Below, piece after piece: positions 45,933 to 63,811 of a stretch of 64,000 nt of DNA (position 1 is its first letter; each line of letters opens with the position of its first letter). Origin of the DNA: Paraburkholderia ginsengiterrae (GTDB taxonomy: Bacteria; Pseudomonadota; Gammaproteobacteria; Burkholderiales; Burkholderiaceae); NCBI RefSeq assembly GCF_001645125.1, contig NZ_LXKA01000044.1, forward strand, positions 1 to 64,000. Reading direction: 5' to 3'. The translations under genes and the position numbers were made by a program. Under the pieces are notes generated by a model, which was given only the letters and a program-made list of their open reading frames with translations, did no database searches and was not told the DNA's origin.

Positions 45933-46673
45933 TTAGAACGTATAGGCGACGTTCACAAAGACGGTAACCGGATTGAGACGGAGCGTCGATCTGGAAACGA
46001 TCTGCGTTCCAGCCGCGGTCTGTCCGTATAGCGTCAGTTTGGTCTTCACCGGCATATAGTTGACAGAGGCTCCGACAGACCAGTGTTTTGCAATCGCGTA
46101 ATTTACCCCGATCTCGAATACCGGATTCCACGATGAACTGAGTGTCGCGTGTGTCGAACCACCGGGACCCAAGCTATCGGTGACAAACTGGCTATTGGTC
46201 TCGCGAACCTGGGTGAACCACGTATAGTTCACGCCAAGTCCGACGAACGGACGGAATTTCGATTCGGCTGAAAACAGGTGGTATCGAAGTTCGATAGCGG
46301 GCGGCATCGGCCTTGTCGTGCCGAGCTTGCCATACTTCTGTAGCGTCCCGTCGCCAATCAGATTCACCTTCATTGGTAGACCAAAAAGCGTGGCGACACC
46401 AATGTTGTCTGTGACATAGTACTCCGTGGTAATTCCCGCCGTGTCCGTTGAACTGGCATGCGCCCCGGTACCGGCTAGCTGCTGATTCACCGCTACGCCG
46501 CCAATGCTTTCCACAGTTAGTGGCGTTGCGTTGCCCTGCGGCGCAATGTGAAGCCATCCTGTCGACAGCGTTATGCTGCCGGCCGACTGCGCATTGGCAT
46601 TGTCGATAAGCCCAGCCGAGCAGATGCAAGCCGCCATACCGACCGAACCGAACGCGCGTTTGTAATTCCTCAT
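45933..46673 (-). CDS. OmpW family outer-membrane protein
   Basis: 246-residue beta-barrel protein with a signal peptide (cleavage after NANA near residue 28). OmpW-type features: GWLHIAP near the mature N-terminus, ELRYHLFSAESKFRPFVGLG, the repeat NPVFEIGVNYAIAKHWSVGAS and a C-terminal Phe (VNVAYTF) for outer-membrane insertion. The small barrels of this family let hydrophobic molecules pass. It lies upstream of the aromatic-degradation operon, on the same strand as the operon but separated from its end. Confidence 0.87.
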   Translation of the reverse strand: MRNYKRAFGSVGMAACICSAGLIDNANAQSAGSITLSTGWLHIAPQGNATPLTVESIGGVAVNQQLAGTGAHASSTDTAGITTEYYVTDNIGVATLFGLPMKVNLIGDGTLQKYGKLGTTRPMPPAIELRYHLFSAESKFRPFVGLGVNYTWFTQVRETNSQFVTDSLGPGGSTHATLSSSWNPVFEIGVNYAIAKHWSVGASVNYMPVKTKLTLYGQTAAGTQIVSRSTLRLNPVTVFVNVAYTF

Positions 46674-47059: not shown

Positions 47060-49081
47060 TCACGTTGGCCTGCTGGGCACACCAATTGCTGCCGGGTCCG
47101 TCCCCGTCGGTTGCTCCGCCCGTGCTGGCCTTGCGGCGGCCGAGATCGAAAATGCGAATGGAAAGCACCCGAGCGCGGAAGTCGCCAACGCTTCGAACGC
47201 GGGGTCGGCAAGTTTCACGTAGAGTGAAATCCCGCGCGAGGTGTCATCAATGAGGATAACGGTTGCATCCTCGACGCCAGCCTCTACAAGGGCCGACTTT
47301 AGGGCGTCTTCCGTTTCGCTCCGTTTGAGCGCCGGCTTGAAGATTTTGCCGACGCCCGTCAGCGGCATCGCGTCCACAATCCGTATCCCCTTTGGCAACG
47401 CTGCGCGTTCGTGGATCTCGTGACGCAGAAACTCGACCAATTCCGCTTCGGTGGTGGTTGTGCCTGGCTTTAGCTGGACATAGGCGACCGGCAACTCGCC
47501 CGCATGCATATCGGGGCGCCCTACAGCTGCGGCGATCTGGACTGCGGGATGGCGATGCAGTGCTTCCTCGATTGCCGCAGGGTCGATGTTGTGTCCGCCC
47601 CGGATAATCAGTTCCTTCTGCCGGCCGGTGAGCCAGAAGTAACCTTCGGGGTCGCAGCGTCCGAGATCGCCAGTATTGAGCCAGAGTTCGCCCTCACCAC
47701 CTTCCATCCAGATGCCACTGTTCTGCTCCGGCCGGGTATAGCCAACGAACACGTTTGGACCGGAGATAATCAGTTGACCGACCTCATCCGCAACGCAATC
47801 CCGCACATACCGGCCGGTTTCATCGACCACCACTGCTTTCATCGCCTGACCGGGCAGACGAAGACCAATCGAACCGACCCTGCGCTCGCCAAGCGGAGGG
47901 TTCACGCTGCTAACGCAGGTACCTTCCGTGAGGCCGTAGCCCTCAAGGATTCTTATCCCTGTACGATCCTGGAAAGTGCGAAGTAATTCCACCGGCATCG
48001 GGGCGGCGCCGCACAGGCCATACTCGAGCGAGCTGATATCGTGCTCGCCGACAGGAATGTCCAGTAGCGATCCGTAGAGTGTCGGAACAGCGCTGAAGAA
48101 GTTGATGCGGTAATGCTCGACAATTTCCCAGAAGCGCTTTACAAGGCCCTCGCCCCGATACCCTTGCGGTGTGCCGAGCACGACGTGGGCACCACGCGAG
48201 AACGCCAGCAGACCTGTCACCATCACGGCGTTGACGTGGAAAAGCGGCAGTCCGCAAAAAATCGTTTTCCCCGGACCAATGCTTTCGCCGAAGAATTGAC
48301 CCGCGTTCCACGCATTGGCCACTTCGTTGCCGTGCCGCCGAACCGCAATCTTCGGCAGTCCGGTGGTGCCCCCCGTGCAGAAGAAGGACGATACATCATC
48401 GGTGCTCGTTCGACGCGTGCTACTGAGCGCCACTCCGGACTCTTTCGCGATGGCTGTGCCGAAATCGTGGATGCCGATATGCGAAGGAACGGCACTGTGA
48501 ACGCCGCCAGGCCCGTACAGTTTTGAACACTCGCCACGCTGAAGAGCCCGGGCCGCGAATCCCTTTTCGCCCGGCATGCGGTCGGCCGGATTCACGAGCA
48601 CCAGATGCTGCAGGCAAGGGAGCCTGTGCAGCACCGCGTGCACCTTCTGCCAAAGGTCGGTTCCGGGAAACGGCGCCAGGGCTACGAGCACGCTCGCGCC
48701 TGAGGCGTTGAGCAGTTCGCCGATGGCTTCACTCTCAAGCAGCGGATTGATCGCGCAGACAATCCCGGCGGCCTCGCCGCCCCAGATCACAAAGTGCGTT
48801 TCGGGGAGGTTGGGCAGAACGTATGCGACCACCGAGTCGCGCTGTACTCCCAGACGCGCAAGCATATTCGCGGTGCGCGTGACATCGCGCACGAATTCAC
48901 TGTAAGTCCAACACTCGGCGCTCCGGTGTTCGTCGGCTGTTGCAAAGAACGAAAGTGCGGGTGCCGATGGATTGATGGCGGCGCCCCGACAGATCATCTC
49001 GTAGGTACTCGACGGAAGATCCGCCGGGTGCCCCTGCGTTTCAATGGCAAGGACATCGTGTACGCTTGCGACGCTTTTCAT
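47060..49081 (-). CDS. AMP-forming acyl-CoA synthetase (fatty/aryl acid-CoA ligase)
   Basis: 673-residue ligase that activates a carboxylic acid as its CoA thioester. Motifs: P-loop-like FFCTGGTTGLPKIAVRRHG, GYGLTEGTC, LNTGDLGRCDPEGYFWLTGR with the hinge, and the catalytic Lys region GVGKIFKPAL. A C-terminal extension of about 50 residues after the usual end is Ala/Pro-rich. It overlaps the FAH-family gene by 4 bases and is last in the operon with the hydroxylase, VOC enzyme and hydrolase. It probably activates the acid product of ring cleavage. Confidence 0.87.
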   Translation of the reverse strand: MKSVASVHDVLAIETQGHPADLPSSTYEMICRGAAINPSAPALSFFATADEHRSAECWTYSEFVRDVTRTANMLARLGVQRDSVVAYVLPNLPETHFVIWGGEAAGIVCAINPLLESEAIGELLNASGASVLVALAPFPGTDLWQKVHAVLHRLPCLQHLVLVNPADRMPGEKGFAARALQRGECSKLYGPGGVHSAVPSHIGIHDFGTAIAKESGVALSSTRRTSTDDVSSFFCTGGTTGLPKIAVRRHGNEVANAWNAGQFFGESIGPGKTIFCGLPLFHVNAVMVTGLLAFSRGAHVVLGTPQGYRGEGLVKRFWEIVEHYRINFFSAVPTLYGSLLDIPVGEHDISSLEYGLCGAAPMPVELLRTFQDRTGIRILEGYGLTEGTCVSSVNPPLGERRVGSIGLRLPGQAMKAVVVDETGRYVRDCVADEVGQLIISGPNVFVGYTRPEQNSGIWMEGGEGELWLNTGDLGRCDPEGYFWLTGRQKELIIRGGHNIDPAAIEEALHRHPAVQIAAAVGRPDMHAGELPVAYVQLKPGTTTTEAELVEFLRHEIHERAALPKGIRIVDAMPLTGVGKIFKPALKRSETEDALKSALVEAGVEDATVILIDDTSRGISLYVKLADPAFEALATSALGCFPFAFSISAAARPARAEQPTGTDPAAIGVPSRPT

Positions 49082-50034
49082 GCCGCCTCTTCCATAACGA
49101 CGTTGTGCTGCACCCCCAGATTAATCGAGCCGTCATAGCTGGCGATCTGTGCCTCCACGACGTCGCCCACGCGCAGGTACTGCGGCCTTTCCTCCTGCAT
49201 TTTCAGGAACAGACGCCATTTTTCCGCTTCAGGCAGTTGAGCCGCGGCACGCATCTTTTCCGGTGACGGAATGCTCAGGGCACAACCGGAGGGTGTGCCG
49301 GTTGCGAGCAGGTCCCCGGCGTGAAGGTCTTGTACGCCTGAAAGCTCCGTCAAGGTCTCTGCCGGTCCGTAGACGAGGCCCGCTGTGGAGTCATTCTGGC
49401 GAACAGTTCCGTTGACCGTCAGCGTCAGCACAAGCTCCTTCAGCTTCGGAACATCCTGTTTCTCCAGCAGGCACAGGTACGGACCGACAGGGCCAAATGT
49501 GCGATAGCTCTTGCCCTTGTAGAACTGCATTTGCGGGATCTGGACATCGCGCGCGGAATAGTCGTTGACGATCACAGCACCGGCGATGTACTCGTGCAGA
49601 TTCTCCTCGGTGACAGTTTCGCGTGACGTAATGTCGCGTTTGAGGACGAGACCGAGTTCGATCTCGTAGTCGAGGAAACGCACCTCACTCGGCTTCACCA
49701 CGGGGGAGTCGGCCGGAACGATACAGCTCGTCGCCTTCGTGAAGATCATGTTGAATTTCTTCACATCCGGGTCCATGCCGGACTCGATCATATGCTGGCG
49801 ATAATTCGCGCCCTGGCAGATGAACTGCTGGTTGGCAGTCACGGGCGACAACCATTGCACCTCCGACTCGGGAATCGTCGGACCGCCTAGGACCAGCAGC
49901 CGTTCAACCGAATTGGCCTCGATAAACTCGGCAGTCGACTTGAACTCGCCGGGAATCGGCGTGATAGCGCCATTAGCGACCACGCCCCATCGGGCGCGGC
50001 CTTGATGCAAATAGTGCAGAACGTGAAGTGTCAT
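49078..50034 (-). CDS. Fumarylacetoacetate hydrolase family protein
   Basis: 318-residue FAH-domain enzyme. Metal-binding acidic residues are visible in YEIELGLVL (ExE) and the following Asp in NDYSARDVQ. Other family parts are QGANYRQHMIE and GDLLATGTPSG. Family members cleave C-C bonds or hydrate/decarboxylate ring-cleavage products. Its place between the VOC dioxygenase and the ligase fits hydrolysis of a meta-cleavage product. It overlaps the ligase gene by ATGA. Confidence 0.87.
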   Translation of the reverse strand: MTLHVLHYLHQGRARWGVVANGAITPIPGEFKSTAEFIEANSVERLLVLGGPTIPESEVQWLSPVTANQQFICQGANYRQHMIESGMDPDVKKFNMIFTKATSCIVPADSPVVKPSEVRFLDYEIELGLVLKRDITSRETVTEENLHEYIAGAVIVNDYSARDVQIPQMQFYKGKSYRTFGPVGPYLCLLEKQDVPKLKELVLTLTVNGTVRQNDSTAGLVYGPAETLTELSGVQDLHAGDLLATGTPSGCALSIPSPEKMRAAAQLPEAEKWRLFLKMQEERPQYLRVGDVVEAQIASYDGSINLGVQHNVVMEEAA

Positions 50035-50068
50035 TTTTCGATCTCCGGATTCTATGGAAGGGATTGGT

Positions 50069-51139
50069 TCAGGCGAAAATCTTTGCCAGCGTGCGCAGCT
50101 TGCTCAGCGTCAGGTCGGGGCTGCGGCGCAGGTTCCTGAAGAGCGCCACGATGCTCGCAGGCGTGAATTTGGGCTTCGTGAAACTGCGCGGCATTGTCGG
50201 TCCCCATTGCGCCATCGCCTCACGGCTCACGGCATGGACGCCGGTTGGCGCATCGGCCGTAAAGAGATCGCCGTCGCAATAATGCTCGTGCTTGTCGCCC
50301 CACGAGTCCTGCCAGTAGTCGAAGATCTGGCTGCCCAGGATATGGCGGCCGATCCCCCACGCGTGCGTCCAGCCCTTCTCGCGCAGGACGCGCTGGCCCA
50401 TGCCGACCGCGTCGGCATCGACGACTTCGTACGCGCTATGGCTGTAGGTGGGTAGAAAGCCTTGTGCAAGCGCCAGCGTATGGTGATCGGTCGGCTTGTC
50501 ACCCAGATCGAGCCGCATGAACGCGACGACGGGCGAGCCATCGGGAAGCACCTGCACATCGCTCGGGATCAAACCGAAATGCTGCGTATACCATGCGCAG
50601 GTTTCCTGATAGTCGGCAAGTTCGAGCACGACGTGCCCGAGCCGGATAACTTCTGGCGCGCACTCGGGCGGTCGCTGCGTCCCGTTAATCCTGACGGCCC
50701 CATCCACGGAGTTGAACGACAATGGCGGCCGATGGGACAGCGTCGAAACTGGCGCCTGGCCCCATACTGCATCGACGCGAAACCCGGAAGGGTCGGTCAA
50801 CCGTACGATATAGCCGCCGCCGGGCAAGGGCGACCGTTCGGCCTCAGACGCGCCAGGCAGCTTTGCAAGCGCATCAAGATCGGCCCTGCTGTCGACCTGC
50901 AGTCCAAAACCGACGAACCGGGATTTCGGCGCCTTCCGGACGACATAGCAGAAATGCGAAGCACCGGTTCCCCGCAGAAGCAATAGTGCTTCACCGCGCG
51001 ATACGGTTTGTAGCCCGAAATCATTGAGAAATTGCTCGGCTTTCACAAGATCCGGCCGATCGAATATCAGGTAGGTCAATGCCGATGCTTTCGTCGTGGG
51101 GTTGGGATGACGAGCCGGCTGCGCAGTGGTCAGTTTCAT
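50069..51139 (-). CDS. VOC-superfamily extradiol dioxygenase candidate
   Basis: 356-residue protein with two vicinal-oxygen-chelate modules. The second one has the metal triad pattern: His in RLGHVVLELADY, His in TYSHSAYEVVD and an acidic/His cluster KHEHYCDGD where extradiol dioxygenases place the metal Glu. This matches catechol-type ring-cleaving enzymes. ATG 51139 starts 13 bp after the flavin hydroxylase stop. It likely opens the ring hydroxylated by that enzyme. Confidence 0.82.
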   Translation of the reverse strand: MKLTTAQPARHPNPTTKASALTYLIFDRPDLVKAEQFLNDFGLQTVSRGEALLLLRGTGASHFCYVVRKAPKSRFVGFGLQVDSRADLDALAKLPGASEAERSPLPGGGYIVRLTDPSGFRVDAVWGQAPVSTLSHRPPLSFNSVDGAVRINGTQRPPECAPEVIRLGHVVLELADYQETCAWYTQHFGLIPSDVQVLPDGSPVVAFMRLDLGDKPTDHHTLALAQGFLPTYSHSAYEVVDADAVGMGQRVLREKGWTHAWGIGRHILGSQIFDYWQDSWGDKHEHYCDGDLFTADAPTGVHAVSREAMAQWGPTMPRSFTKPKFTPASIVALFRNLRRSPDLTLSKLRTLAKIFA

Positions 51140-51152
51140 AACGGATAAGAAA

Positions 51153-52850
51153 TCAGGCGGTTCGAATAGCGGTTTCGGCTTCCGGTGTCCGCACGCTCAA
51201 GGGATTACCCAGCAAGGCAAGACTCTCGCGCACGATACGGTTTGCATCGGTGGCCGGGCCATCGTGGACAATCGTCTTGTCTGGCCGGATTACGGCAGCC
51301 CACCCGAGGGGCACCAGCCCGGGAAGAAATACGCCTTCGAGGTCTTCCCATCTGTCGCGCGGGGCAAGATGCAGCCGTTGCCCCCGATGGGCAATCTGGA
51401 CAATGCGCCCTCCGGCACGTGCAAACGCTGCGGCCGTCGCGTGCTCGAGCACAGCCGCCGCATCCACGCCAAACCCGATCAGCGTGAGGCCCTGCCCGAA
51501 CACGTCGTCGCTCAGACGCGTGGTGCCATCCGAACCTCTCACCCAGCCTTGCGCGATGACAGCACCACGAACAAGCTTCGTCGACGAGCGGCCCTGGACG
51601 AACAGTCCCCGAAGAAATGCATTCTTCGGCTTGATCTGCAGCTCCTCGAATTGCGCGCGCAAGCGCGGTACCAGTCTCGACAGACGCATCAACCCGTGAG
51701 TCAATAAGGCGACGCCCCTGCTCCGGGGCATGACGAGCTTGCCCATAAACTTCGCGAGGTTGATCATCGCCTTCGCGTGGGGGCGCCGCTCCTCGTCATA
51801 GGTATCCAGAATCGCTGGATTCGCACGTCCCTTCACCACCCATGCGAGCTTCCAGCAAAGGTTAGCGGCGTCCCGAAGACCTGCGACCAACCCCTGCCCG
51901 ACGAATGGGGGCGTGATGTGGGCCGCGTCGCCCGCCAGGAACACCCGCCCCTTGCTGAACGCATCGACAGCGCGCGCATGGAAGCGATACACGGCCTTGC
52001 GCTCGATGATCATGTCTTCCAGATTGCCCCAGGGCGAAAGCAACTCGCGGATACGCGTCTCGGATTCCATATCCTCGCGACGCTCGCCAGGCCGGAGCAT
52101 GAATTCCCAGCGTTCGCGGCCGCCAGGCGCGACCATATGTGGGATCGGCCGACGGTGATCGCAGATGAACTCGATGTGATCGATCGGACGCGGTACGTGG
52201 CGGGCATCGACGATCAGCCAGTCCTCAGCGAACGTCTTGCCCTTGAATTCCTGCCCGATGAGCTGGCGTACCAATGAACTCGCCCCGTCCGCGCCGACCA
52301 GATAGCGGGCCCGTACCGCGTGGGTGCGCCCCTGGCCAAGATCTAATGATGCGACGACAAGATCCCGTTCCTCCGTGAAGCTCTTGAGCTCGACCCCCAA
52401 CGCGATATGCACACAGTCGTATGTCTCGAGCCGGGCGCGCAGGCACCGTTCCAGGTCTGGCTGGTAGAACGTGACGAGCTTCGGATGACCATCCAGGCTG
52501 CCAAGCGAATTCACCCTGCCGAACAGTCCCAGCATGGGCGACCTCATGCGAACGTGCGGTATGGCAATCGTCTCGAAATCACTCTCCGCAACGCCGGCAA
52601 GCTGAAGGATGCGCAGCGCTTCGTTATCGAGCGCGATCGCACGGGGCGCCATGAATATCTCAGTCGACCTGTCGACAACCATCACGTTCACTCCGTGTCG
52701 TGCCAACAGATTCGCAATCGTGGCCCCCACCGGTCCGCAACCCACCACTAAAACATCTACGGCCGACGGATATGCCCCGATCGGCGCACGACCCTCACCA
52801 TGCCGACTGCACGGCGCGGATCCATCTTTTGCTGCTGTCTCCACAGTCAC
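51153..52850 (-). CDS. FAD-dependent aromatic hydroxylase (MhpA-like)
   Basis: 565-residue flavoprotein monooxygenase of the PHBH/MhpA class. N-terminal GxGxxG in VLVVGCGPVGATIANLLARHG lies near residue 31; DG motif LVGADGASSLVRQLIG near residue 185; GD motif VFLAGDAAHITPPFVGQGL near residue 300. The C-terminal thioredoxin-like extension is typical of phenol/MhpA hydroxylases. It is first in the operon, directly behind a divergent promoter controlled by the neighbouring TetR. The substrate is probably a hydroxylated aromatic acid or phenol. Confidence 0.88.
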   Translation of the reverse strand: MTVETAAKDGSAPCSRHGEGRAPIGAYPSAVDVLVVGCGPVGATIANLLARHGVNVMVVDRSTEIFMAPRAIALDNEALRILQLAGVAESDFETIAIPHVRMRSPMLGLFGRVNSLGSLDGHPKLVTFYQPDLERCLRARLETYDCVHIALGVELKSFTEERDLVVASLDLGQGRTHAVRARYLVGADGASSLVRQLIGQEFKGKTFAEDWLIVDARHVPRPIDHIEFICDHRRPIPHMVAPGGRERWEFMLRPGERREDMESETRIRELLSPWGNLEDMIIERKAVYRFHARAVDAFSKGRVFLAGDAAHITPPFVGQGLVAGLRDAANLCWKLAWVVKGRANPAILDTYDEERRPHAKAMINLAKFMGKLVMPRSRGVALLTHGLMRLSRLVPRLRAQFEELQIKPKNAFLRGLFVQGRSSTKLVRGAVIAQGWVRGSDGTTRLSDDVFGQGLTLIGFGVDAAAVLEHATAAAFARAGGRIVQIAHRGQRLHLAPRDRWEDLEGVFLPGLVPLGWAAVIRPDKTIVHDGPATDANRIVRESLALLGNPLSVRTPEAETAIRTA

Positions 52851-52896
52851 TCCGTCTGTTGTTTGTTAGACCGACGCTAGGTGCGCCGTTAGTGAC

Positions 52897-52947
52897 ATTA
52901 AAGTCATAGATGATTGTTTTGTCAACATAGACAATAGAATCTATACT
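52897..52947. promoter_or_regulatory. Divergent promoters and shared dyad, aromatic operon / tetR1
   Basis: Plus promoter for tetR1: -35 TTGTCA (52919-52924), 17 bp, -10 TATACT (52942-52947). Minus promoter for the hydroxylase operon: -35 TTGACA (52925-52920), 17 bp, -10 TTTAAT (52902-52897). The dyad TTGTC-AACATA-GACAA (52919-52934) covers both -35 boxes. A GTGACATTA element lies at 52892. The layout recurs upstream of the second TetR at 60311. Confidence 0.75.
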
Positions 52948-52973
52948 TCGGTATGGCCAAAACTGGACCGATC

Positions 52974-53729
52974 ATGCCGAACACCTCAAATCGCCCGACA
53001 GCAAAGCGTCCTACCCGTGCGGCGCCAGCCTCCCCGGTTGCCGCTCCCGAAGAACGCGAGCCGCGCGGTGCCCGTCGCAAGCGCGAGACGCGCGCTCGCC
53101 TGCTCGATGCTGCCCTCAGGCTGATGGCCGAAAAGGGCATGGAAGGTGTAGCCATCAACGAAATCACCGAGGCCGCCGACGTCGGCTTCGGATCGTTCTA
53201 CAACCACTTCGAGTCGAAGGAAGCCATCTACGCGACGCTTGTGGACAACGTGTTCGAGGAGTTCGGCGACAGGCTCGATCGCCTCACCGGGGGCCTGTCC
53301 GACCCCGCTGAAGTGATCGCCGTCTCGGTGCGCCATACCCTGATGCGTGCGCGGCGCGATCCCGTCTGGGGACGCTTCCTGATACGCGAAGGCTTTTCAG
53401 CGGGCGTCCTGAGCCGCGGGCTGGGTCAGCGACTGCTGCGGGATATCGGCAATGGCATCGCCGCCAAGCGCTTTATGGTCGCCGACCCCTTCATCGGCTT
53501 TCTTTCGGTGGGCGGCACGGTGCTCGCGGCAGTTGCAGCCGAACTGAATTTCGTCGCGCCGGGAGCACCGGCGGCGCATTTGCTCGACGAACTTGGCTTC
53601 AGCGGAGAGCACTTCGCCGAGCGCACGGCAGCAACGCTTCTGCAAACACTCGGGCTCAAGCGCGCGGAGGCGGAGAAGATTGCAATGCGAGCGTTACCGC
53701 TCGTTGAGGTTGAAGTCGATGGGGATTGA
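52974..53729 (+). CDS. TetR family regulator of the aromatic operon (tetR1)
   Basis: 251-residue TetR/AcrR protein. After a basic, Pro-rich tail come RRKRETRARLLDAALRLMAE and the helix-turn-helix INEITEAADVGFGSFYNHFESKEAIY near residues 58-80 (only the region is meant). The rest is a C-terminal ligand domain with VRHTLMRARRDPVWGRFLIREGF. The ATG at 52974 is chosen over 52953 because it aligns with the start of the paralogue at 60395. It diverges from the hydroxylase operon and overlapping -35 boxes imply it represses both. It is a close paralogue of the TetR gene at 60395. Confidence 0.85.
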   Translation: MPNTSNRPTAKRPTRAAPASPVAAPEEREPRGARRKRETRARLLDAALRLMAEKGMEGVAINEITEAADVGFGSFYNHFESKEAIYATLVDNVFEEFGDRLDRLTGGLSDPAEVIAVSVRHTLMRARRDPVWGRFLIREGFSAGVLSRGLGQRLLRDIGNGIAAKRFMVADPFIGFLSVGGTVLAAVAAELNFVAPGAPAAHLLDELGFSGEHFAERTAATLLQTLGLKRAEAEKIAMRALPLVEVEVDGD

Positions 53730-53779
53730 GGCGGGCGACGATAAGGTAAGTGACGGAATTGGAGTCATCGCCTCAGCAC

Positions 53780-54058
53780 GATGAGCAACGGTGCTTTCTG
53801 GCTGGCCTTGTCTATCAATCTGTTTCGGGGTCTGGACTCCATTCAACCGCCGACGCGATGCATGCCTTTCAGACCCGCTCCGCAGCGCGTGCAACGCGCA
53901 ACCAACCCTCCCAGCCGTGGACGTTTGCGGAATAGCAGATCGCACTCCTCGCAGGCAATCAGATTCGGATGTTCCATACTGGCACGCGACAAGCGAAATT
54001 TCGATGCCATCCGATGCAGGCGGTAGCGCCGGCTCAATTCCGTTAGCCAACGGCGCAC
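53780..54058 (-). pseudogene. Remnant of a pqiA-type gene (zinc-ribbon part only)
   Basis: A frame ending at 53843 reads MEHPNLIACEECDLLFRKRP then ARCTRCGAGLKG: two CxxC knuckles and spacing as in the N-terminal ribbon of PqiA. In PqiA a membrane region follows. Here the frame shifts and a degraded continuation (RNRLIDKASQ) is seen in another frame before it stops near the end of tetR1. The surrounding 53730-54143 contains nothing else. Confidence 0.5.
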
Positions 54059-54143
54059 CCTCTTTCTTGCATAACGAACTGATCTGGCACTGGAGAGCGG
54101 CCTGGTTCATCGTGACGCTCTCCCCGACCTAACGGAATCAAGG

Positions 54144-55607
54144 TCATTCTCTTGACGTCACGTGCGGCGGATCGGCTGGCAATTCGCCCATCGCCTGGAA
54201 CAGTGCGGCGGTATCGCTCATGCGGTGGCTCCCGGCGCGTACGGCGCCAAGCTGTGCATTGAGAAATCGCTGCTCGCTTGCGTGCTGTGCCGATGACGGC
54301 AGGGAACCCAAGCGGGCGCGCGACGTCGTTTCGTCGAATGCCGCATGGGATGCCTGTGCCGCTCCTTCGGTAGATGCCAGCGCCTGCGCGTCGTTGTCCA
54401 GCGCGGCAAGCGAATCCGCGACATCCTGGAATGCCGACAGGACTGTCGATTTGTAATGCAGAACCGCCGCATCGTAGGTATCGATCGAGGCTCTGCGCTG
54501 CGCGAACAACGCCCCTCCATGGAAGAGCGGCTGCGACAGGCCCGCACCGATCGCCCAGAGCCCGCCCGCACCTGAGAGCATGGCGGGCCAGCTAAAGCCG
54601 CCGCGCCCCATCGAGGCCGTCAGCGACAGACTCGGAAAGAGTTGCGCGGTCGCAGCGCCAACGTCGGCCGCGGCGGCCTTCACGGCGGCGTCGGCTGCCT
54701 GAATGTCCGGACGCGAACGCAGGAGGTCCGACGGCACCACGACGGGCACATGGTCTGGCAACGCCAGGCTATCGAGGTCGGGAACGGTCGGTGCATTATC
54801 CGGCGTCCGGCCCATCAGTACCGCCAGCGCGTGGACCGCTGAGGTGCGCCGTTGGCGCAAGGCCGGAAGACTCGCCGCAATCGATTCTGCATCCTCCGTC
54901 GAGTTGAGCGCCTGCACGTGCGAAATGGATCCGAGCGCGTACCGTTGCTGATCCTCGTTTGCGGTTTCGCTCGCCACGGCGACGAGCCGTTCGGTGAGCG
55001 CGATCTGTCGATCGAGCGCCGCCACATTGATCGCAGTGGCGACGATGTTGGCGGCAAGCGCGCGTCGGGCGGCTTCCAGTTCATACCCCTGCACATTCAC
55101 GCGAGCGGTAGCCGCCGCGTTGGCGTAGCGCGTCTGGCCAAATAAGTCGAATGTGTAGTGCGCCTGAAGCTGCCCGGCGAAAAAGTTGTACTGCACCTGC
55201 TCAGGGCCGAGCCCCGGCACGACGGGTGAACGCGCACGTTCAACCTGGGCGACACCGTCGACTGACGGCAGCGTGGATGAGCCGACCTGAGCGCGCAGTC
55301 CCTCTTGCGCGGCCGCGAGCGTTCGCTGCGCACCTGCAAGCGTCGGGCTGTTGCGCAGGCCTTCGTCGACGAGTGCATCGAGCGCGTCGGACCGGTAAAG
55401 CCGCCACCACTGCGGAACGGCCGTCGAGCCGATATCGAACTGCTGCGCAATACCGCCTGCGGCAACCGTCTTCGAGGGCTGCGCCTGCGCCCCGTAGTGC
55501 TCGGGTGAAGGCATCGCCGGCGGCTCGCCGCTAGGGCCGAACGAGCAGGCCGTCAGCGCGAGCGCCGTCGCCACTGCGAGAACGGATGTCTTATAGGCAA
55601 GCTTCAT
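54144..55607 (-). CDS. Outer-membrane channel lipoprotein of the RND pump (NodT family)
   Basis: 487-residue TolC-like protein with lipobox LTACS (Cys near 21) and a NodT start. OEP modules show QRTLAAAQEGLRAQVGS, ALAANIVATAINVAALDRQI and LSAFQDVADSLAALDNDAQA. ATG 55607, after GGAGATCTGATC, is 3 bases past the permease stop. It is the last gene of the RND operon and forms the exit duct. Confidence 0.88.
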   Translation of the reverse strand: MKLAYKTSVLAVATALALTACSFGPSGEPPAMPSPEHYGAQAQPSKTVAAGGIAQQFDIGSTAVPQWWRLYRSDALDALVDEGLRNSPTLAGAQRTLAAAQEGLRAQVGSSTLPSVDGVAQVERARSPVVPGLGPEQVQYNFFAGQLQAHYTFDLFGQTRYANAAATARVNVQGYELEAARRALAANIVATAINVAALDRQIALTERLVAVASETANEDQQRYALGSISHVQALNSTEDAESIAASLPALRQRRTSAVHALAVLMGRTPDNAPTVPDLDSLALPDHVPVVVPSDLLRSRPDIQAADAAVKAAAADVGAATAQLFPSLSLTASMGRGGFSWPAMLSGAGGLWAIGAGLSQPLFHGGALFAQRRASIDTYDAAVLHYKSTVLSAFQDVADSLAALDNDAQALASTEGAAQASHAAFDETTSRARLGSLPSSAQHASEQRFLNAQLGAVRAGSHRMSDTAALFQAMGELPADPPHVTSRE

Positions 55608-55609
55608 GA

Positions 55610-58600
55610 TCAGATCTCCGTATGCTCGACGACAACCGGCTGCATCCCGCACTCGTCGCGCCGGACCTTGAAGCACGTCGCATAGAGTGCCGGCAGGAAG
55701 AAAATGGTCAGTCCCGTGGCGATCGTGATACCCCCCATCAGCGCGGTCGCCATGGGCCCGAAGAAAGCTGAACGCAAGAGCGGAATCAAGGCGAGCACCG
55801 CGGCTGCGGCCGTCAGCATGATCGGCCTGAAACGCCGCACGGTTGCACCGATAATCGCGTCGAAGCGCCCCTGCCCCGCCGCGATGTCCTGGTCGATCTG
55901 GTCGACCAGGATCACGGAGTTGCGCATGATGATGCCGAACATGGCAATCACGCCGAGCAACGCGACGAAACCAAAGGGCTTGCCGAACAGGAGCAGCGCG
56001 GCCACGACGCCGATCAGTCCGAGCGGAGCTGTCAGCACGACGATAAACGTCCGCAGGAAGCTCTTGAGCTGGATCATGAGGAGCGTCAGCACGGCGATGA
56101 TCATGAGCGGCATCTCGGCGTTGATCGAGGTCTGGCCTTTCGCGCTTTCTTCGACCGCACCGCCTACTTCGATGCGATAACCCACCGGCAGTCTCGCGTG
56201 TTCCCCGGCGAGCGCGTGCTCGATATCGCGGGTCACGTCGATGCCCTGCACGTCACCCCGAATGTCAGCCTGCACGGTGATCGTCGGCTGGCGGTCGCGC
56301 TCCCAGATCACCCCATACTCGAGCGCGTCCCGAACGCGTCCGAGGGAACCGAGCGGAACCGGGCCGTTCGGCGTCGGAATCGAGAGGCTCGTGAGTTGCG
56401 CGGGATCAACACGCTCGCTCTTCGGCGCACGCAGATCGACGTTGATCAGCTTGTCCCGCTCACGGTACTGGGTGACTGTGTATCCCGAGAGCGTCATGGC
56501 CAGGAAGTTCGATACGTCCTCCGACGTGACGCCAAGCTGACGCGCCCTGCTCTGATCGATCTCGAACGAGATCGACCGTTCCGCCGGCTCGTCCCAGTCG
56601 AACTGGACATTGCGTGTGCGGGAGTCGGCACGGACCTTCCCGGCGACCGTTTCGGCAATCGAGCGCACGGTTGCAATATCGTTGCCGCTCACCCGAAACT
56701 TGATCGGAAAACCCACGGGCGGACCGTTCTCGAGTCGCGCCACACGCGTGCGCACGCCGGAGAACTCTCGCCCGAGTTTGGCATCGAACCAGCGCATCAA
56801 CTCTTCGCGGTTTTCGACGCTTTTTGCCGTGATTACGAACTGCGCAAAGTTAGGCTGCTGAAGCTGCTGGTCGAGCGGCAGGTAAAAGCGCGGTGCTCCG
56901 GTGCCCACAAAGTCGACGAAGTGGTCGATCCCGGGATTGCCGTCGAGCGCCTTTTCCAGGTGCTTCGCTTCACGCAGCGTCGCCTCGAACGAAGCGCCTT
57001 CCGGCAAGCGCAGGTCCACGAGCAGCTCTGGCCGTTCAGAGTTGGGGAAGAACTGTTGCGGCACGCGCGTGAAGACCACCATCGCAATCGCAAAAAGCAC
57101 GGCAGTGACACCGAGCACTGCCCAGCGACGCTCGATACACCACGAGACCCACCCTGACAGGCGCCGGTAGAAGCCGGTGTTGTAAACATCGTGCTCGTGA
57201 TGGTGCCCGCCACTCTCGTGGCTCTTGTGCTCGGGCAGCATGTGGAAGCCCAGCAAGGGGACCAGCACGACGGCCGCGAACCACGATACGATCAGCGCAA
57301 TGGCCGACACTTCGAAGATCGAGCGCGTGTATTCGCCCGTGCTCGACTTCGCGAGTGCGATCGGCAGGAAGCCCGATACGGTCACGAGCGTGCCGGTCAG
57401 CATAGGGAATGCCGTGCTCGTGTAGGCAAAGGCCGCGGCGCGCGTGCGAGTCCACCCCTGCTCGAGTTTCACCGCCATCGTTTCGACAGCGATAATCGCG
57501 TCGTCGACGAGCAGCCCCAGCGCGAGCACGAGCGTGCCAAGGGAGACCTGGTCCAGCCCGATATTGAACACATGCATGCACAGCGCCGTCACGGCGAGCA
57601 CGATCGGAATCGAGATCACGACGACCATGCCGGTGCGCAGGCCGAGCGAAACGAGGCTCACGACCAGCACGATTGCTACCGCTTCGGCGACCGACTTTAC
57701 GAACTCGTCCACGGAGTGCTTGACCGCGTGAGGCATGCTCGAGACGGGAGCCAGCTTGAGTCCCGCCGGCATGGCCGCCTGCAGTTCGGCGGTTTTCGCG
57801 TCGAGCGCCTTGCCGAGGCTGATCACGTCGCCGCCCTTTTGCATCGTCGCGCCGATACCGAGCACTGCCTGTCCGCCGACCCGCATCTGGGTGGCGGGCG
57901 GATCGTCGTAGCCGCGTGTGATCTTCGCGATGTCACCGAGCCGGAAAGTCCGTTTGTTCACGGTGATGAGCGTGTCGGCGAGCGCCTGCACGTCCTTGAA
58001 CGCGCCGCTCGGTCGCACGAACACCCGGTCGTCCGCCGTCGCAATGGTGCCAACGGGCGCAACGGTATTTTGTGCGTCAATTGCCTGGGCGAGCTGCTGC
58101 GGCGTGATAGAGAGCCCCATCAGCTCCGCATTCGATATCTCGACGAAAATGTGCTGGTCCGGGTCGCCAAAGTAGTCGACCTTGGCGACGCCGGGCACGC
58201 GCAGCAGGATGGTGCGCAACTGGTCCGCGTAGTCGCGCAGTTGCGCAGGCGTAAAGCCGTCGCCTTCAAGCGCATAGATGTTCGTGTAGACGTCACCAAA
58301 CTCGTCGTTGAAAAACGGTCCAACCGTCCCCTTGGGGAGCGTCGCGGCGATGTCGCCCACTTTCTTGCGCACCTGGTACCAGGTTTCGGGGACTTCCTTG
58401 ACCGGGGCCGAGTCCTTCATTGCAAAGAAGATCATCGACTCGCCGGGCCGCGAGTAACTCTTGATGTTGTCGACGTACGGCGCCGCCTGCAACTGACGGC
58501 CGATCCGGTCCGTGATCTGTTCCTGCACCTCGCGGGCGGTCGCGCCCGGCCAGTAAGTCTTGACCACCATGGTCCGGAAAGTGAACGGCGGGTCCTCCGA

Positions 58601-58783
58601 CTGCGCAAGCTGCGTATAACCGATCACGCCGAACAGGGTTGCAAGCCCGATCAGAAAGATCACGAGCTGCTGATGGCGCAACGCCCACGCGGAGAGATTA
58701 AAGCCGCCTTCGCCATGTACCTCGGCGTCGGACGGGGTGACGGGCGCGCTGTCACACGCGGTTTCACGGTCGCGTGCGTTCAT
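55610..58783 (-). CDS. RND efflux permease
   Basis: 1057-residue inner-membrane pump of the HAE/AcrB-like RND superfamily, normal length. Twelve membrane segments with two large periplasmic loops. TM4 contains LGLLVDDAIIAVE, with the two acidic residues of the proton relay. The mid-protein RND repeat begins near ERRWAVLGVTAVLFAIAM, and the second half has MFGIIMRNSVILVDQI. It overlaps the adaptor gene by ATGA. The predicted cargo is a toxic organic compound; the linked aromatic operon suggests aromatics. Confidence 0.9.
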   Translation of the reverse strand: MNARDRETACDSAPVTPSDAEVHGEGGFNLSAWALRHQQLVIFLIGLATLFGVIGYTQLAQSEDPPFTFRTMVVKTYWPGATAREVQEQITDRIGRQLQAAPYVDNIKSYSRPGESMIFFAMKDSAPVKEVPETWYQVRKKVGDIAATLPKGTVGPFFNDEFGDVYTNIYALEGDGFTPAQLRDYADQLRTILLRVPGVAKVDYFGDPDQHIFVEISNAELMGLSITPQQLAQAIDAQNTVAPVGTIATADDRVFVRPSGAFKDVQALADTLITVNKRTFRLGDIAKITRGYDDPPATQMRVGGQAVLGIGATMQKGGDVISLGKALDAKTAELQAAMPAGLKLAPVSSMPHAVKHSVDEFVKSVAEAVAIVLVVSLVSLGLRTGMVVVISIPIVLAVTALCMHVFNIGLDQVSLGTLVLALGLLVDDAIIAVETMAVKLEQGWTRTRAAAFAYTSTAFPMLTGTLVTVSGFLPIALAKSSTGEYTRSIFEVSAIALIVSWFAAVVLVPLLGFHMLPEHKSHESGGHHHEHDVYNTGFYRRLSGWVSWCIERRWAVLGVTAVLFAIAMVVFTRVPQQFFPNSERPELLVDLRLPEGASFEATLREAKHLEKALDGNPGIDHFVDFVGTGAPRFYLPLDQQLQQPNFAQFVITAKSVENREELMRWFDAKLGREFSGVRTRVARLENGPPVGFPIKFRVSGNDIATVRSIAETVAGKVRADSRTRNVQFDWDEPAERSISFEIDQSRARQLGVTSEDVSNFLAMTLSGYTVTQYRERDKLINVDLRAPKSERVDPAQLTSLSIPTPNGPVPLGSLGRVRDALEYGVIWERDRQPTITVQADIRGDVQGIDVTRDIEHALAGEHARLPVGYRIEVGGAVEESAKGQTSINAEMPLMIIAVLTLLMIQLKSFLRTFIVVLTAPLGLIGVVAALLLFGKPFGFVALLGVIAMFGIIMRNSVILVDQIDQDIAAGQGRFDAIIGATVRRFRPIMLTAAAAVLALIPLLRSAFFGPMATALMGGITIATGLTIFFLPALYATCFKVRRDECGMQPVVVEHTEI

Positions 58784-59949
58784 GACGAAAAATCCTCGGG
58801 ATGCAACGGGGCCACCACCTGTACATGTTGGTCTGCGCTCACTGCGTGCACGCCCTGCATCACGACGCGGTCGCCGTCGTGCAGGCCGCCCGTGACGGAG
58901 ACCGTGCGCTCGTCGTAGCGCGCGATGCTGACAGGGCGCAGCTCAAGGGTGTCGCTACCGGTGCGCACGACCCACACAGCGGGGTCCTCGCCCTTGTGAA
59001 AAAGCGCCGTTTCAGGCAGCGCGAACGAACGCGCCGCTGGCGCGTCGCCGACGGCGTCGAATGTGACATTTGCCGTCATGCCGAGGCGAACTTCGGGGCT
59101 CGGCGCGGCCAGCGTGAGCTTCACGCGCCAGGTGCGGCTTTGCGGGTCGGCAGCCGGTGACACCTCGCGCACGCGCGCCTCGAAGGTCTTACCAGGCAGC
59201 GCAGACAGGCTTACGCGCGCATTGCTGCCAACGGTCAATGCACCAAGCGTCCGCTCGGGCGCGTCGCAGACAACATCCACGTCTCCAGTCCAGTCGAGGT
59301 GATAGACGGCTTGATCTGCCTGAACGTTCTGGCCGGTGTCTGCGTCCTCCGACGTGATGACGCCGTCGTGGTCCGCCGTGAGCGTGGCGTAGCGCAGGTG
59401 ATCCGTGGCGAGCGCCATTTGGGCGAGCGCCGAATCGCGCTGCGCGAGGGCGGAAGCGTAGGCGTCCTGGGTCTGCTCCAGCTGCGCCGTTGCGATCAGG
59501 TTTGCCTGCGCCTGAGCGCGGTCGCGGTCGAGCTGCTGTTTGGCGTACAAGAGACGATGTTCGGCGGCGTCGAGCTGCGCGCGCGCGTTGACCAGGTTAT
59601 TGCGCAGATCGGTAGGGTCGAGCAGCGCAACGGTCTGTCCCGCCTTGACGGTATCGCCGATGCGCACCCGCCGTTCGGTGACCTTGCCTCCAACCCTGAA
59701 CGAAAGAGGTGTCGAATACCGCGCCTGTATCTGAGCCGGCAACGAGGCGCTCGCTGTACGCCCGTCTGGATGAACCGTGACTGCGACGACGGGCTTGGGC
59801 TCGGGAGCGACGGTTTCGCGCTGGTGGCAGGCCGCTACCAGCATTGCGCCGCAAACCACAATCAGAAGACGTCCTCGGAGCGATGACCGGACAACGGACG
59901 GCAGGAAGGAACGCGCAAGCGTCTGCGCGCTAAGACCGAAAAGTTTCAC
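58780..59949 (-). CDS. RND periplasmic adaptor lipoprotein (membrane fusion protein)
   Basis: Adaptor of the tripartite pump, about 389 residues from GTG 59949. The signal ends in a lipobox LVAAC, then AcrA-type modules: RYSTPLSFRVGGKVTERRVRIGD (lipoyl), a coiled coil with AQLDAAEHRLLYAKQQLDRD, then beta-barrel/membrane-proximal domains. The frame is open to 60117, but starts at 60024, 59997 and 59949 all lack a good ribosome-binding site; 59949 gives a typical length. First gene of the RND operon. Confidence 0.84.
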   Translation of the reverse strand: MKLFGLSAQTLARSFLPSVVRSSLRGRLLIVVCGAMLVAACHQRETVAPEPKPVVAVTVHPDGRTASASLPAQIQARYSTPLSFRVGGKVTERRVRIGDTVKAGQTVALLDPTDLRNNLVNARAQLDAAEHRLLYAKQQLDRDRAQAQANLIATAQLEQTQDAYASALAQRDSALAQMALATDHLRYATLTADHDGVITSEDADTGQNVQADQAVYHLDWTGDVDVVCDAPERTLGALTVGSNARVSLSALPGKTFEARVREVSPAADPQSRTWRVKLTLAAPSPEVRLGMTANVTFDAVGDAPAARSFALPETALFHKGEDPAVWVVRTGSDTLELRPVSIARYDERTVSVTGGLHDGDRVVMQGVHAVSADQHVQVVAPLHPEDFSS

Positions 59950-60310
59950 GATGTTTACAAGGCAAATGATGGTCCAGCAATAAAATGGGCGAGGCATCGG
60001 AAGACACGGTGTGTCTGACAGCATGCTTTGCGAAGCGCGGGAGCGCTCGATCCGGCATGCCTGTAACTTAGTATTCCTACTCGCTGCGTCTGATACAAAC
60101 CGCTTGCAACTCTTCATACTTCGTCAGCGCACGCGGCCACTCCCCACGAAACAGCTAGAGAACGAGCGTCAAAGAGATCCTCGTCGCGAGCCCGGCGCTC
60201 ATGGATCGGAACGGCAGTGGACGACTCGTCTTCAGCGCTGTAACACCCTGTTCCAGGCACCGTCGCGACTCAATTCGTCTGTCCATGCGGTCGCTGATCC
60301 GCTCGCGACA
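59950..60310 (-). other. Long leader between the RND promoter and its first gene
   Basis: If the minus promoter at 60316-60345 is used, the RND message has a 5' leader of roughly 360 bases. The in-frame open stretch from 60117 to 59950 could be extra N-terminus or leader. No known riboswitch or attenuator hairpin was recognised. Confidence 0.4.
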
Positions 60311-60315
60311 GTGAC

Positions 60316-60368
60316 ATTACATCCCATAACTGATGATATTGTCAATCATGACGCAAAAATCTACAATA
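60316..60368. promoter_or_regulatory. Divergent promoters and shared dyad, RND operon / tetR2
   Basis: Plus promoter for tetR2: -35 TTGTCA (60339-60344), 18 bp, -10 TACAAT (60363-60368). Minus promoter for the RND operon: -35 TTGACA (60345-60340), 18 bp, -10 TGTAAT (60321-60316). The dyad GTCA-ATCA-TGAC lies at 60341-60352. GTGACATTA at 60311 and ATCTA near 60359 are shared with the tetR1 region. Confidence 0.72.
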
Positions 60369-60394
60369 CACCGCTACAGAAACCTGGACCCGAG

Positions 60395-61195
60395 ATGCCT
60401 GATACCCCGAACTCCCGTGCAACTCGGCAGCGCACACGAAAGCTGCCAGCCCCTGCCGAGGCGACCCAGGGGCGCCAGCCGCGCGGCGTCCGCCGCAAGC
60501 GGGAGACTCGTACCCGCCTGCTCGACGCGACGCTCAGGCTAGTGGCTGAAAAAGGGATAGGTTCAGTGGCCATCAACGACATTACCGAGGCCGCCGACGT
60601 CGGTTTCGGCTCCTTCTACAACCACTTCGAATCGAAGGAAGGGATCTTCGCCGCGCTCGTCGAGTGGGTGTTCGAGGAGTTCGCCGATTCGCTTGACCGT
60701 CTGGCCAGCGGACTTTCCGACCCGGCCGAAGTGGTCGCGGTCTGTGTGCGCCATACGCTGATGCGCGCCCGCCGCGAGCCGGTGTGGGGACAGCTCCTGA
60801 TCCGCGAAGGTTTTTCGGTGCATGCGCTGAACTGGGGTCTCGGTCAGCGACTGCTGCGCGATAGTCAAACTGGCATTTCCGCGCGACGCTTTGTCGTCCC
60901 GGATCACTTCCTGTGTCTCATTTCCGTTACGGGGATCATCTTCGCGGCGATCGCCGCTGAGTTGCACTTTTCCGCCTCCGTCACACCAGCGGTCCAGCGG
61001 CAGAAGGAGACTGGACTCGGAGAACAGAACTTCGCGGAGCGCGCTGCGACGGTCGTGCTACAGGCACTTGGAATCAAGCGCGCGGAGGCTGAGAGCATTG
61101 CGCGGTTGCCGTTACCGGGTAAGCCGGCATCTTTGTCGTCTGGCCGCCAGGATCGCATCCTGCTCGAAAGGTTCGAGTCCTCACTGAACTGCTGA
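60395..61195 (+). CDS. TetR family regulator of the RND operon (tetR2)
   Basis: 266-residue TetR/AcrR protein, very similar to the one at 52974: RRKRETRTRLLDATLRLVAE, INDITEAADVGFGSFYNHFE, AVCVRHTLMRARREPVWGQL and GLGQRLLRD all match, with differences concentrated in the ligand domain and the C-terminal tail. The open frame extends to 60011, but ATG 60395 aligns with the paralogue and follows the promoter. It diverges from the RND operon and should repress it. Confidence 0.86.
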   Translation: MPDTPNSRATRQRTRKLPAPAEATQGRQPRGVRRKRETRTRLLDATLRLVAEKGIGSVAINDITEAADVGFGSFYNHFESKEGIFAALVEWVFEEFADSLDRLASGLSDPAEVVAVCVRHTLMRARREPVWGQLLIREGFSVHALNWGLGQRLLRDSQTGISARRFVVPDHFLCLISVTGIIFAAIAAELHFSASVTPAVQRQKETGLGEQNFAERAATVVLQALGIKRAEAESIARLPLPGKPASLSSGRQDRILLERFESSLNC

Positions 61196-61694
61196 TCGAG
61201 CATTTCGGATAGTTGCCAGTTCTCGGACAAGCCCGCAGAAGAACAATGACTGCATCCCGGACGAATAACGGATGTGTCGAGCGTACTGCCGTTCGGTGCG
61301 TGCCATACAGTCGCGTCACGCACGCTCAACGAACTCGTGCGAGCTGACCTCGCACGCCATGCGCGCCTGCACCGTGAACTGCTCGACGCGTGGAAAGGTC
61401 AGTGACAAGGCGAGTAGGCGTAGTAACCGGAAACGTCCCTCATAACGTTTTCCGACGAAATATCGGCGGTTCCGGCTTACACGCCCACATCGTTTAGCCG
61501 CCTGCCAGATCGCACATATACTGAAACGACGCGCGGCCATGCGAAAACGGGTTGCGCAGTTCCAGTGCCAGCGGGCCTGAGCGCGAGCATCGCGGCCGCT
61601 ACTCTTATTGGACTATGGTCCAATACCGCAGTTGGCAGTTGCGCCGGTTGTCTGCGTCGCGTGAGCCTTGAGGTACCGTACCATGGAGGCAGTG
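61196..61694. other. Intergenic region with a 7-bp inverted repeat
   Basis: About 500 bp with no supported gene. The inverted repeat ATTGGAC-TATG-GTCCAAT at 61607-61624 lies 71 bp before the ABM-family start and could be its operator. A short frame reading TLNELVRADLARHARLHREL near 61320-61380 has no match I recognise. Confidence 0.45.
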
Positions 61695-62048
61695 ATGCAG
61701 AGCGAACAGGTGTACTGGGTTTTCACCGTTACCGTCGATCAGATGGACAAGTTCACGCCGCTGATACCAAAGCTTGTGGCCGAGACAGAGAAGGAGCCGG
61801 GCGCGCTGCAATTTGAGTTCAACATCGCGGACGACCAGAAGACGGTTGACATCTTCGAACGCTACTCGGATTCGAAGGCAGCGCTGTTCCACCAAGCGGA
61901 AAGCTTCGTCCCATTGTCGGAGGAGTTCTTCGCTGTGGCCAAGCTCACTCGCTGGGTGATCTATGGCACGCCCTCGGACGAGTTCAAGAAGGCGAACGCC
62001 GACTTCCATCCGATTTATATGACGCGAACCGATGGCTTTGTCAGGTGA
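61695..62048 (+). CDS. Antibiotic biosynthesis monooxygenase (ABM/YgiN-like) family protein
   Basis: 117-residue dimeric alpha/beta barrel protein: VYWVFTVTVDQMDKFTPLIP, TEKEPGALQFEFNIADD, VDIFERYSDSKAALFHQAES. Such proteins act as cofactor-free quinol oxygenases or haem-degrading enzymes; the substrate is unknown. The start at 61695 is chosen for the GGAGG five bases upstream (an in-frame ATG lies at 61683). Its closeness to the aromatic and RND operons suggests quinone/aromatic metabolism. Confidence 0.8.
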   Translation: MQSEQVYWVFTVTVDQMDKFTPLIPKLVAETEKEPGALQFEFNIADDQKTVDIFERYSDSKAALFHQAESFVPLSEEFFAVAKLTRWVIYGTPSDEFKKANADFHPIYMTRTDGFVR

Positions 62049-63720: not shown

Positions 63721-63811
63721 GATTCCCCTCGCCATTGTCCGCGTGGGATTATCTCTATCCGCCGGTCACGACGGCGGGCGAAGCTGAGGCCGTTTCCGCT
63801 GGCCCGCCATA

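Follow-up and report, generated by a model that had tools for sequence, protein, structure and literature searches.

Paired aromatic-catabolism and efflux modules with paralogous RolR-family regulators and a conserved operator-like block in Paraburkholderia ginsengiterrae

The first 64,000 nucleotides of contig NZ_LXKA01000044.1 from the draft genome of Paraburkholderia ginsengiterrae (assembly GCF_001645125.1), hereafter the window, contain two divergent gene modules lying side by side: a catabolic operon facing tetR1, and an operon for a resistance-nodulation-division (RND) efflux pump facing tetR2. This layout, genes and strands alike, had been proposed in a preliminary description made from the sequence alone and is borne out by the open reading frames (ORFs) and domain matches (Table 1). 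The OmpW gene, outside the coordinates of that description, is part of the catabolic gene row conserved in the loci of relatives. Here we present the two regulators, the block of DNA shared by their promoter regions and the distribution of both in related genomes, together with a model in which the modules would form one regulon with two branches.

Table 1. Features of the locus (positions are those of the window)
Feature	Position	Strand	Basis and remarks
OmpW-family outer-membrane protein	45933..46673	-	PF03922, E 4e-32; 3' of the CoA ligase here and in relatives
Acyl-CoA synthetase	47060..49081	-	NF005714/PRK07529
FAH-family hydrolase	49078..50034	-	PF01557
Two-domain VOC extradiol-type ring-cleavage dioxygenase	50069..51139	-	PF00903; TIGR02295 HpaD match far below cut-off
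FAD aromatic hydroxylase, MhpA-like	51153..52850	-	NF004829, above cut-off
TCCA-N6-CTCC stretch	52840..52853		TetR1 side only; conserved upstream of TetR1 genes
Operator/divergent promoter 1 (predicted)	52893..52947		TGA 52893, TCA 52904, TGA 52911, TCA 52922
TetR1, RolR-family repressor (predicted)	52974..53729	+	TetR_N + PF21306, alignment to RolR
Decayed pqiA relic	53837..53977	-	51% over 47 aa, E 5e-9
Outer-membrane channel, NodT family	54144..55628	-	TIGR01845; start uncertain, ORF opens at 55676
RND permease, MexK/TriC type	55610..58783	-	Similarity to MexK and 6vej
Periplasmic adaptor	58780..60117	-	TIGR01730; start uncertain, probably downstream of 60117
Operator/divergent promoter 2 (predicted)	60312..60367		TGA 60312, TGA 60331, TCA 60342, TGA 60349
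TetR2, RolR-family repressor (predicted)	60395..61195	+	TetR_N + PF21306, alignment to RolR

TetR1 and TetR2 share 64% identity (154 of 242 residues in a pairwise alignment) and have the long identical segments near the helix-turn-helix that had been noticed earlier. Low identity of the recognition helices had been named as a point that would speak against a common regulator-operator unit; the recognition segment ADVGFGSFYNHF is the same in both window proteins. For comparison, 158 non-redundant TetR relatives with upstream DNA were assembled and classified by the neighbouring gene, 77 lying beside the catabolic operon (TetR1), 60 beside the pump adaptor (TetR2) and 21 beside neither. ADVGFGSFYNHF occurs in 73 of the 77 TetR1 and 46 of the 60 TetR2 proteins, those of the window included.

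Both proteins carry TetR_N and the PF21306 C-terminal domain. PF21306 has only two matches in the 8.5-Mb draft genome, tetR1 and tetR2, and among 14 control genomes it was found in Corynebacterium glutamicum alone. The best PDB match of TetR1 and TetR2 is 3aqs/3aqt (E 2.5e-36 and 1.7e-29), which is RolR, described as the resorcinol repressor of Corynebacterium, where D94, R145, R148 and D149 are reported to contact resorcinol (PMC3086911). When these residues are placed on the relatives by alignment to RolR, each position of the tetrad is kept in 77/77 TetR1 proteins; in the 60 TetR2 proteins the Asp94 position holds Asp in 57 and Glu in three, and the other three positions are kept in 59, with one gap. 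The presence of the tetrad in both regulators supports the proposal of the preliminary description that one class of effector serves the two of them.

The promoter regions in the window are similar as well (38 of 57 aligned columns agree). As first reported, they share GTGACATTA, of which there are exactly two copies in the window, at 52892 and 60311; 0.22 copies are expected by chance, and two were reached in 2 of 100 shuffles. Back-to-back -35 boxes (TTGTCA on the forward and TTGACA on the reverse strand) overlie a GTC-N6-GAC dyad in both regions, at the TTGTCAA copies of 52919 and 60339. The distances of 82 and 84 bp from GTGACATTA to the start codons hold with the tetR1 start at 52974, which is the start that aligns with TetR2; an in-frame ATG also lies upstream at 52953. 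The predicted promoters are TTGTCA(52919)-N17-TATACT for tetR1, TTGTCA(60339)-N17-TACAAT for tetR2 and, on the opposite strand, TTGACA-N17-TTTAAT for the leftward operon of the first module. One correction is needed: GTGACATTA consists largely of the leftward promoter's -10 region, together with an outer half-site, and by comparison of the sites the most conserved shared part of the block is TGA(T)-N4-TTGTCAA. The nine shared letters alone are weak evidence, and conservation across relatives is the decisive test.

The block was found upstream of 77/77 TetR1 and 59/60 TetR2 genes, the TetR2 locus L048 having no site. The anchoring rule accepts a bare TTGTCAA, and the presence of the whole block rests on column counts: CA at positions 12-13 together with TGA at 18 and TCA at 29 occurs in 77/77 TetR1 and 53/59 TetR2 sites. 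The conserved array of half-sites consists of TGA at 0, TCA at 11, TGA at 18 and TCA at 29, to which TetR2 sites add TGA at 36. In TetR1 sites TCA(11), TGA(18) and TCA(29) are each present in 77/77, and in TetR2 sites TGA(18), TCA(29) and TGA(36) are each present in 59/59. A matrix trained on TetR1 promoters only, with the window left out, was compared with 1200 control pieces taken from these loci and with 1200 shuffles; 57 of the 60 TetR2 upstream regions exceed all control pieces and 59 exceed all shuffles. The window TetR2 site scores rather low among them (20.2, the control maximum being 20.1), which is probably due to a 1-bp insertion that its clade carries and most other TetR2 sites lack. 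Given this test and the conservation in relatives, chance sharing of the letters was rejected. The core pattern is matched perfectly at two places in the genome, both of them the window sites; four further sites with one or two mismatches, one control match also being found, were treated as chance. A longer pattern allowing up to three mismatches missed the TetR2 site on account of its insertion and found nothing genome-wide apart from the TetR1 site.

The spacings TGA-N8-TCA and TCA-N4-TGA equal those of the published RolR operator repeats REP1 and REP2, which reportedly overlap within rolO. Since much of the block is made up of -35 and -10 elements at 17-bp spacing, it could also be read as mainly a strong divergent sigma-70 promoter, with TetR operators at other places, such as a second stretch that is conserved on the TetR1 side only. 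That stretch, TCCA-N6-CTCC (52840), is present in 65/77 TetR1 upstream regions, whether or not the locus has the FAD hydroxylase gene. It is situated downstream of the leftward promoter, as the operator of RolR is in C. glutamicum. We regard this explanation as quite improbable. RNA polymerase alone is insufficient to account for TCA(11) and TGA(18), invariant in the 77 TetR1 sites, because both lie within the spacer between the leftward -35 and -10 boxes; the spacing of the block is that of the RolR repeats; and TCCA-N6-CTCC was found in 0/60 TetR2 upstream regions, so it cannot be the shared operator.

A tree of the TetR proteins (155 rows, quick method, midpoint root for drawing only) places 58 TetR2 rows and one unclassified TetR2 piece on one side and 77 TetR1 with 19 unclassified rows on the other, with a support of 94 for the split, just below the 95 mark of the tool. 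The closest named relatives of the window TetR1 are those of P. lacunae and P. phenazinium. Each side covers several genera of the Burkholderiaceae, and the duplication is therefore old; a recent event in this strain, by tandem duplication or gene conversion, was rejected, as each paralogue clusters with its own orthologues. The suggestion that a regulator-operator unit was duplicated is well supported: the block has been retained beside both paralogues, which form separate groups in the tree, each with several genera.

A search of relatives for the paired layout, advised in the preliminary description, showed that 52 of 80 genome regions hold pump and catabolic genes, while 18 hold catabolic genes only, eight the pump only and two neither. 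All 18 catabolic-only regions have one TetR gene, and the 60 pump regions have two in 53 cases, three in five (among them L184, where one interrupted TetR2 was counted as two pieces) and one in two. Of the eight genomes with pump-only regions, seven carry the VOC enzyme elsewhere, and in five of these the coordinates place it immediately beyond TetR2. On the most economical view, the catabolic operon and TetR1 form the core, to which the pump and TetR2 were added. In P. phenazinium tetR2 is broken and both the pump and its operator are retained, a state which fits control of the pump by TetR1. In L142, L145, L146 and L151 a third RolR-family TetR gene adjoins TetR2 on the opposite strand.

Homology, conserved residues, the conserved block, the deep separation of the paralogues and the conserved layout are observed directly; repression, effector class, co-induction and cross-binding are what the following model would add. 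We consider it probable, at roughly 0.68, that the locus is a two-branch regulon under twin RolR-family repressors, in which one class of phenol switches on both catabolism and export. Each repressor would bind the array of TGA and TCA half-sites across its divergent promoter pair, probably as more than one dimer, and would thereby silence its own gene and the opposite operon. A resorcinol-class phenol would enter the Asp-Arg-Arg-Asp pocket of both repressors and release them. The release would switch on uptake and ring cleavage by OmpW, the FAD hydroxylase, the extradiol dioxygenase, the FAH hydrolase and the CoA ligase, and likewise the MexJK/TriABC-like pump, which would remove excess phenol. 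The pair itself would derive from the old duplication of a regulator plus operator unit. Each repressor probably binds the site of the other to some degree, because the recognition segment and the operator core are still alike.

Several observations weigh against this model or parts of it. In the published RolR system the operator is located downstream of the start sites, where it acts as a roadblock, and not over -35 boxes, and the TCCA-N6-CTCC stretch could be a leader, a ribosome-binding or a further regulatory site. Among the 21 unclassified relatives the block was found in seven and is missing in 14, several of which are TetR1 genes beside the pump and not beside the catabolic operon. Genome G141 has the pump, and no VOC gene was found in it at the threshold of the genome search. 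L056/L176 lack both TetR2 and the pump operator and yet retain the pump. The hydrophobic pocket of RolR (F107, L111, L114, L142, F172) is not kept as a set, three of the five residues being smaller: F107 is replaced by Ile or Val, L114 by Thr and F172 by Gly in TetR1 and by Ile, Thr or Ser in TetR2, and L111 is mostly Val, whereas L142 is retained. Since F107, L114 and F172 are replaced by smaller residues, the ligand need not be resorcinol itself; the less bulky pocket may accept a resorcinol-class ligand, possibly substituted. Because this set is not kept, we assign TetR1 and TetR2 from their domains and alignment to the RolR family and do not claim orthology with RolR.

The two classes also differ from each other. 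Position 11 of the site is T in 77/77 TetR1 and 15/59 TetR2 sites, and at pocket position 180 Gly is found in 76/77 TetR1 proteins and Ile, Thr or Ser in 58/60 TetR2 proteins, the other two having a gap, so that specificity may have diverged. These differences, the long separate histories of the paralogues and the joint loss in L056/L176 would agree with a pair of insulated switches, in which TetR2 and its operator have changed and each repressor governs its own operon, perhaps with different effectors. Such insulation appears rather unlikely, as the recognition segment is identical in most members, the TetR1-only matrix still detects 57/60 TetR2 sites, and P. phenazinium retains its pump operator despite the broken tetR2.

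The catabolic enzymes give some indication of the substrate. Relatives can have, instead of the FAD hydroxylase or in addition to it, a molybdenum (Mo) enzyme of the pyrogallol/resorcinol hydroxylase family; no Mo hydroxylase was found in the window. The Mo large subunit of L054 matches PF21423 and, over residues 140-984, pyrogallol hydroxytransferase 4v4c (889 bits, E 3e-266), and with its Fer4_11 iron-sulfur (Fe-S) partner it belongs to the transhydroxylase type. A lipid-binding SCP2-like N-terminus suspected on this subunit had no Pfam support and was dropped. The pyrogallol hydroxytransferase family is reported to include resorcinol hydroxylase (PMC10100899). The hydroxylase slot could be counted in 61 non-redundant loci out of 140 (29 without the full gene row in the available sequence, 30 ending too near OmpW and 20 duplicates were dropped): the Mo enzyme alone is present in 29, the FAD enzyme alone in 25, both in six and apparently neither in one, L183, whose sequence holds two OmpW genes and stops 0.7 kb past the second. 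That two unrelated hydroxylases occupy the same place under a RolR-type switch indicates a resorcinol-class ring, and the swap to the Mo enzyme supports a substrate of this class. The match of the window hydroxylase to the MhpA-named NF004829 above its cut-off would instead suggest a phenylpropanoid such as 3-(3-hydroxyphenyl)propionate. This is unlikely in view of the Mo enzyme in relatives and the RolR-family regulators; in addition, the window operon consists of five enzyme and porin genes only, no search of the genome for other Mhp genes having been made.

The permease is closest over its full length to MexK (1165 bits) and 6vej (934 bits), the next of 59 chains at E 1e-50 reaching 215 bits. 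With 6vej, which we take to be TriC, this similarity assigns the pump to the MexK/TriC type. MexJK and TriABC are reported to export triclosan, MexJK being described as without effect in a wild-type background, and the repressor of mexJK is given as MexL (PMC9323910). At least some 190 bp separate the predicted pump promoter from the adaptor start (60117-60316), a long leader beside the roughly 45 bp of the catabolic side. In 41 of the 60 pump regions pqiB is in the same stretch as the pump genes, and in L054 PqiA, PqiB and PqiC were all identified; the window retains only the 47-residue pqiA relic.

The combination of hydroxylase, extradiol dioxygenase, FAH hydrolase and acyl-CoA ligase would fit an orcinol-like route in which the side chain leaves as a fatty acid. 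A lipophilic substrate would be in keeping with OmpW and with the PqiABC of relatives, and an alkylresorcinol is plausible. We tentatively suggest, as less than an even chance, a regulon for plant 5-alkylresorcinols with ring hydroxylation by the FAD or Mo enzyme, orcinol-like cleavage, activation of the fatty acid by the CoA ligase, an envelope guarded by the pump and PqiABC, and twin repressors that cross-talk; O2-independent hydroxylation by the Mo enzyme and O2-dependent hydroxylation by the FAD enzyme would then be interchangeable. Literature searches over titles and the beginnings of abstracts on the catabolism of alkylresorcinol, sorgoleone, olivetol or orcinol, on a resorcinol-type TetR with an RND pump in Burkholderia and on pqiABC with an RND pump found no matching system.

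Weaker operator-like sites were seen past the gene of the Mo Fe-S subunit (L054:617, L061:418, L067:83, L074:190, L086:85 and L144:30); in two checked cases, L200 and L202, they lie between this gene and a TetR-like gene of a different kind. Operator-like sites also occur upstream of a predicted membrane protein gene adjoining TetR2 (L203:2294 and L204:1666). In the window, a gene resembling 4-hydroxyphenylpyruvate dioxygenase lies just past OmpW (43510-44643; 275 bits against a TIGR01263 cut-off of 277), and tetR2 is followed by a small protein with an ABM-domain match below the cut-off (61668-62048) and an Alginate_exp-family porin (62215-63735).

Among the closest known systems is RolR-rolHMD of C. 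glutamicum, which has the same TetR_N and PF21306 domains, resorcinol contact tetrad, divergent orientation of regulator and aromatic operon, and operator spacing. The present locus differs in having two regulators instead of one, an added pump branch, the block over the -35 boxes, a less bulky pocket, and genes for extradiol cleavage, the FAH hydrolase and the CoA ligase in place of rolHMD. The pump resembles MexJK-MexL and TriABC of Pseudomonas aeruginosa in its permease, and differs from them by the outer-membrane channel gene beside the permease, the RolR-type regulator and the linked catabolic operon. The Mo large subunit of relatives resembles PgtL/RhL (pyrogallol transhydroxylase/resorcinol hydroxylase), but its gene stands in one row with that of a ring-cleavage dioxygenase, an O2-requiring enzyme. 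The system is thus a variant of the RolR kind and not a new kind, conserved and biologically sensible. It offers a testable example in which duplicated regulators with one retained operator would coordinate the breakdown and the export of a single toxic substrate, with dozens of natural variants open to comparison, and it extends the operator logic of RolR from an actinobacterium to the Burkholderiaceae. The exchange of FAD and Mo hydroxylases in one gene row would reveal which class of substrate this widespread pathway acts on.

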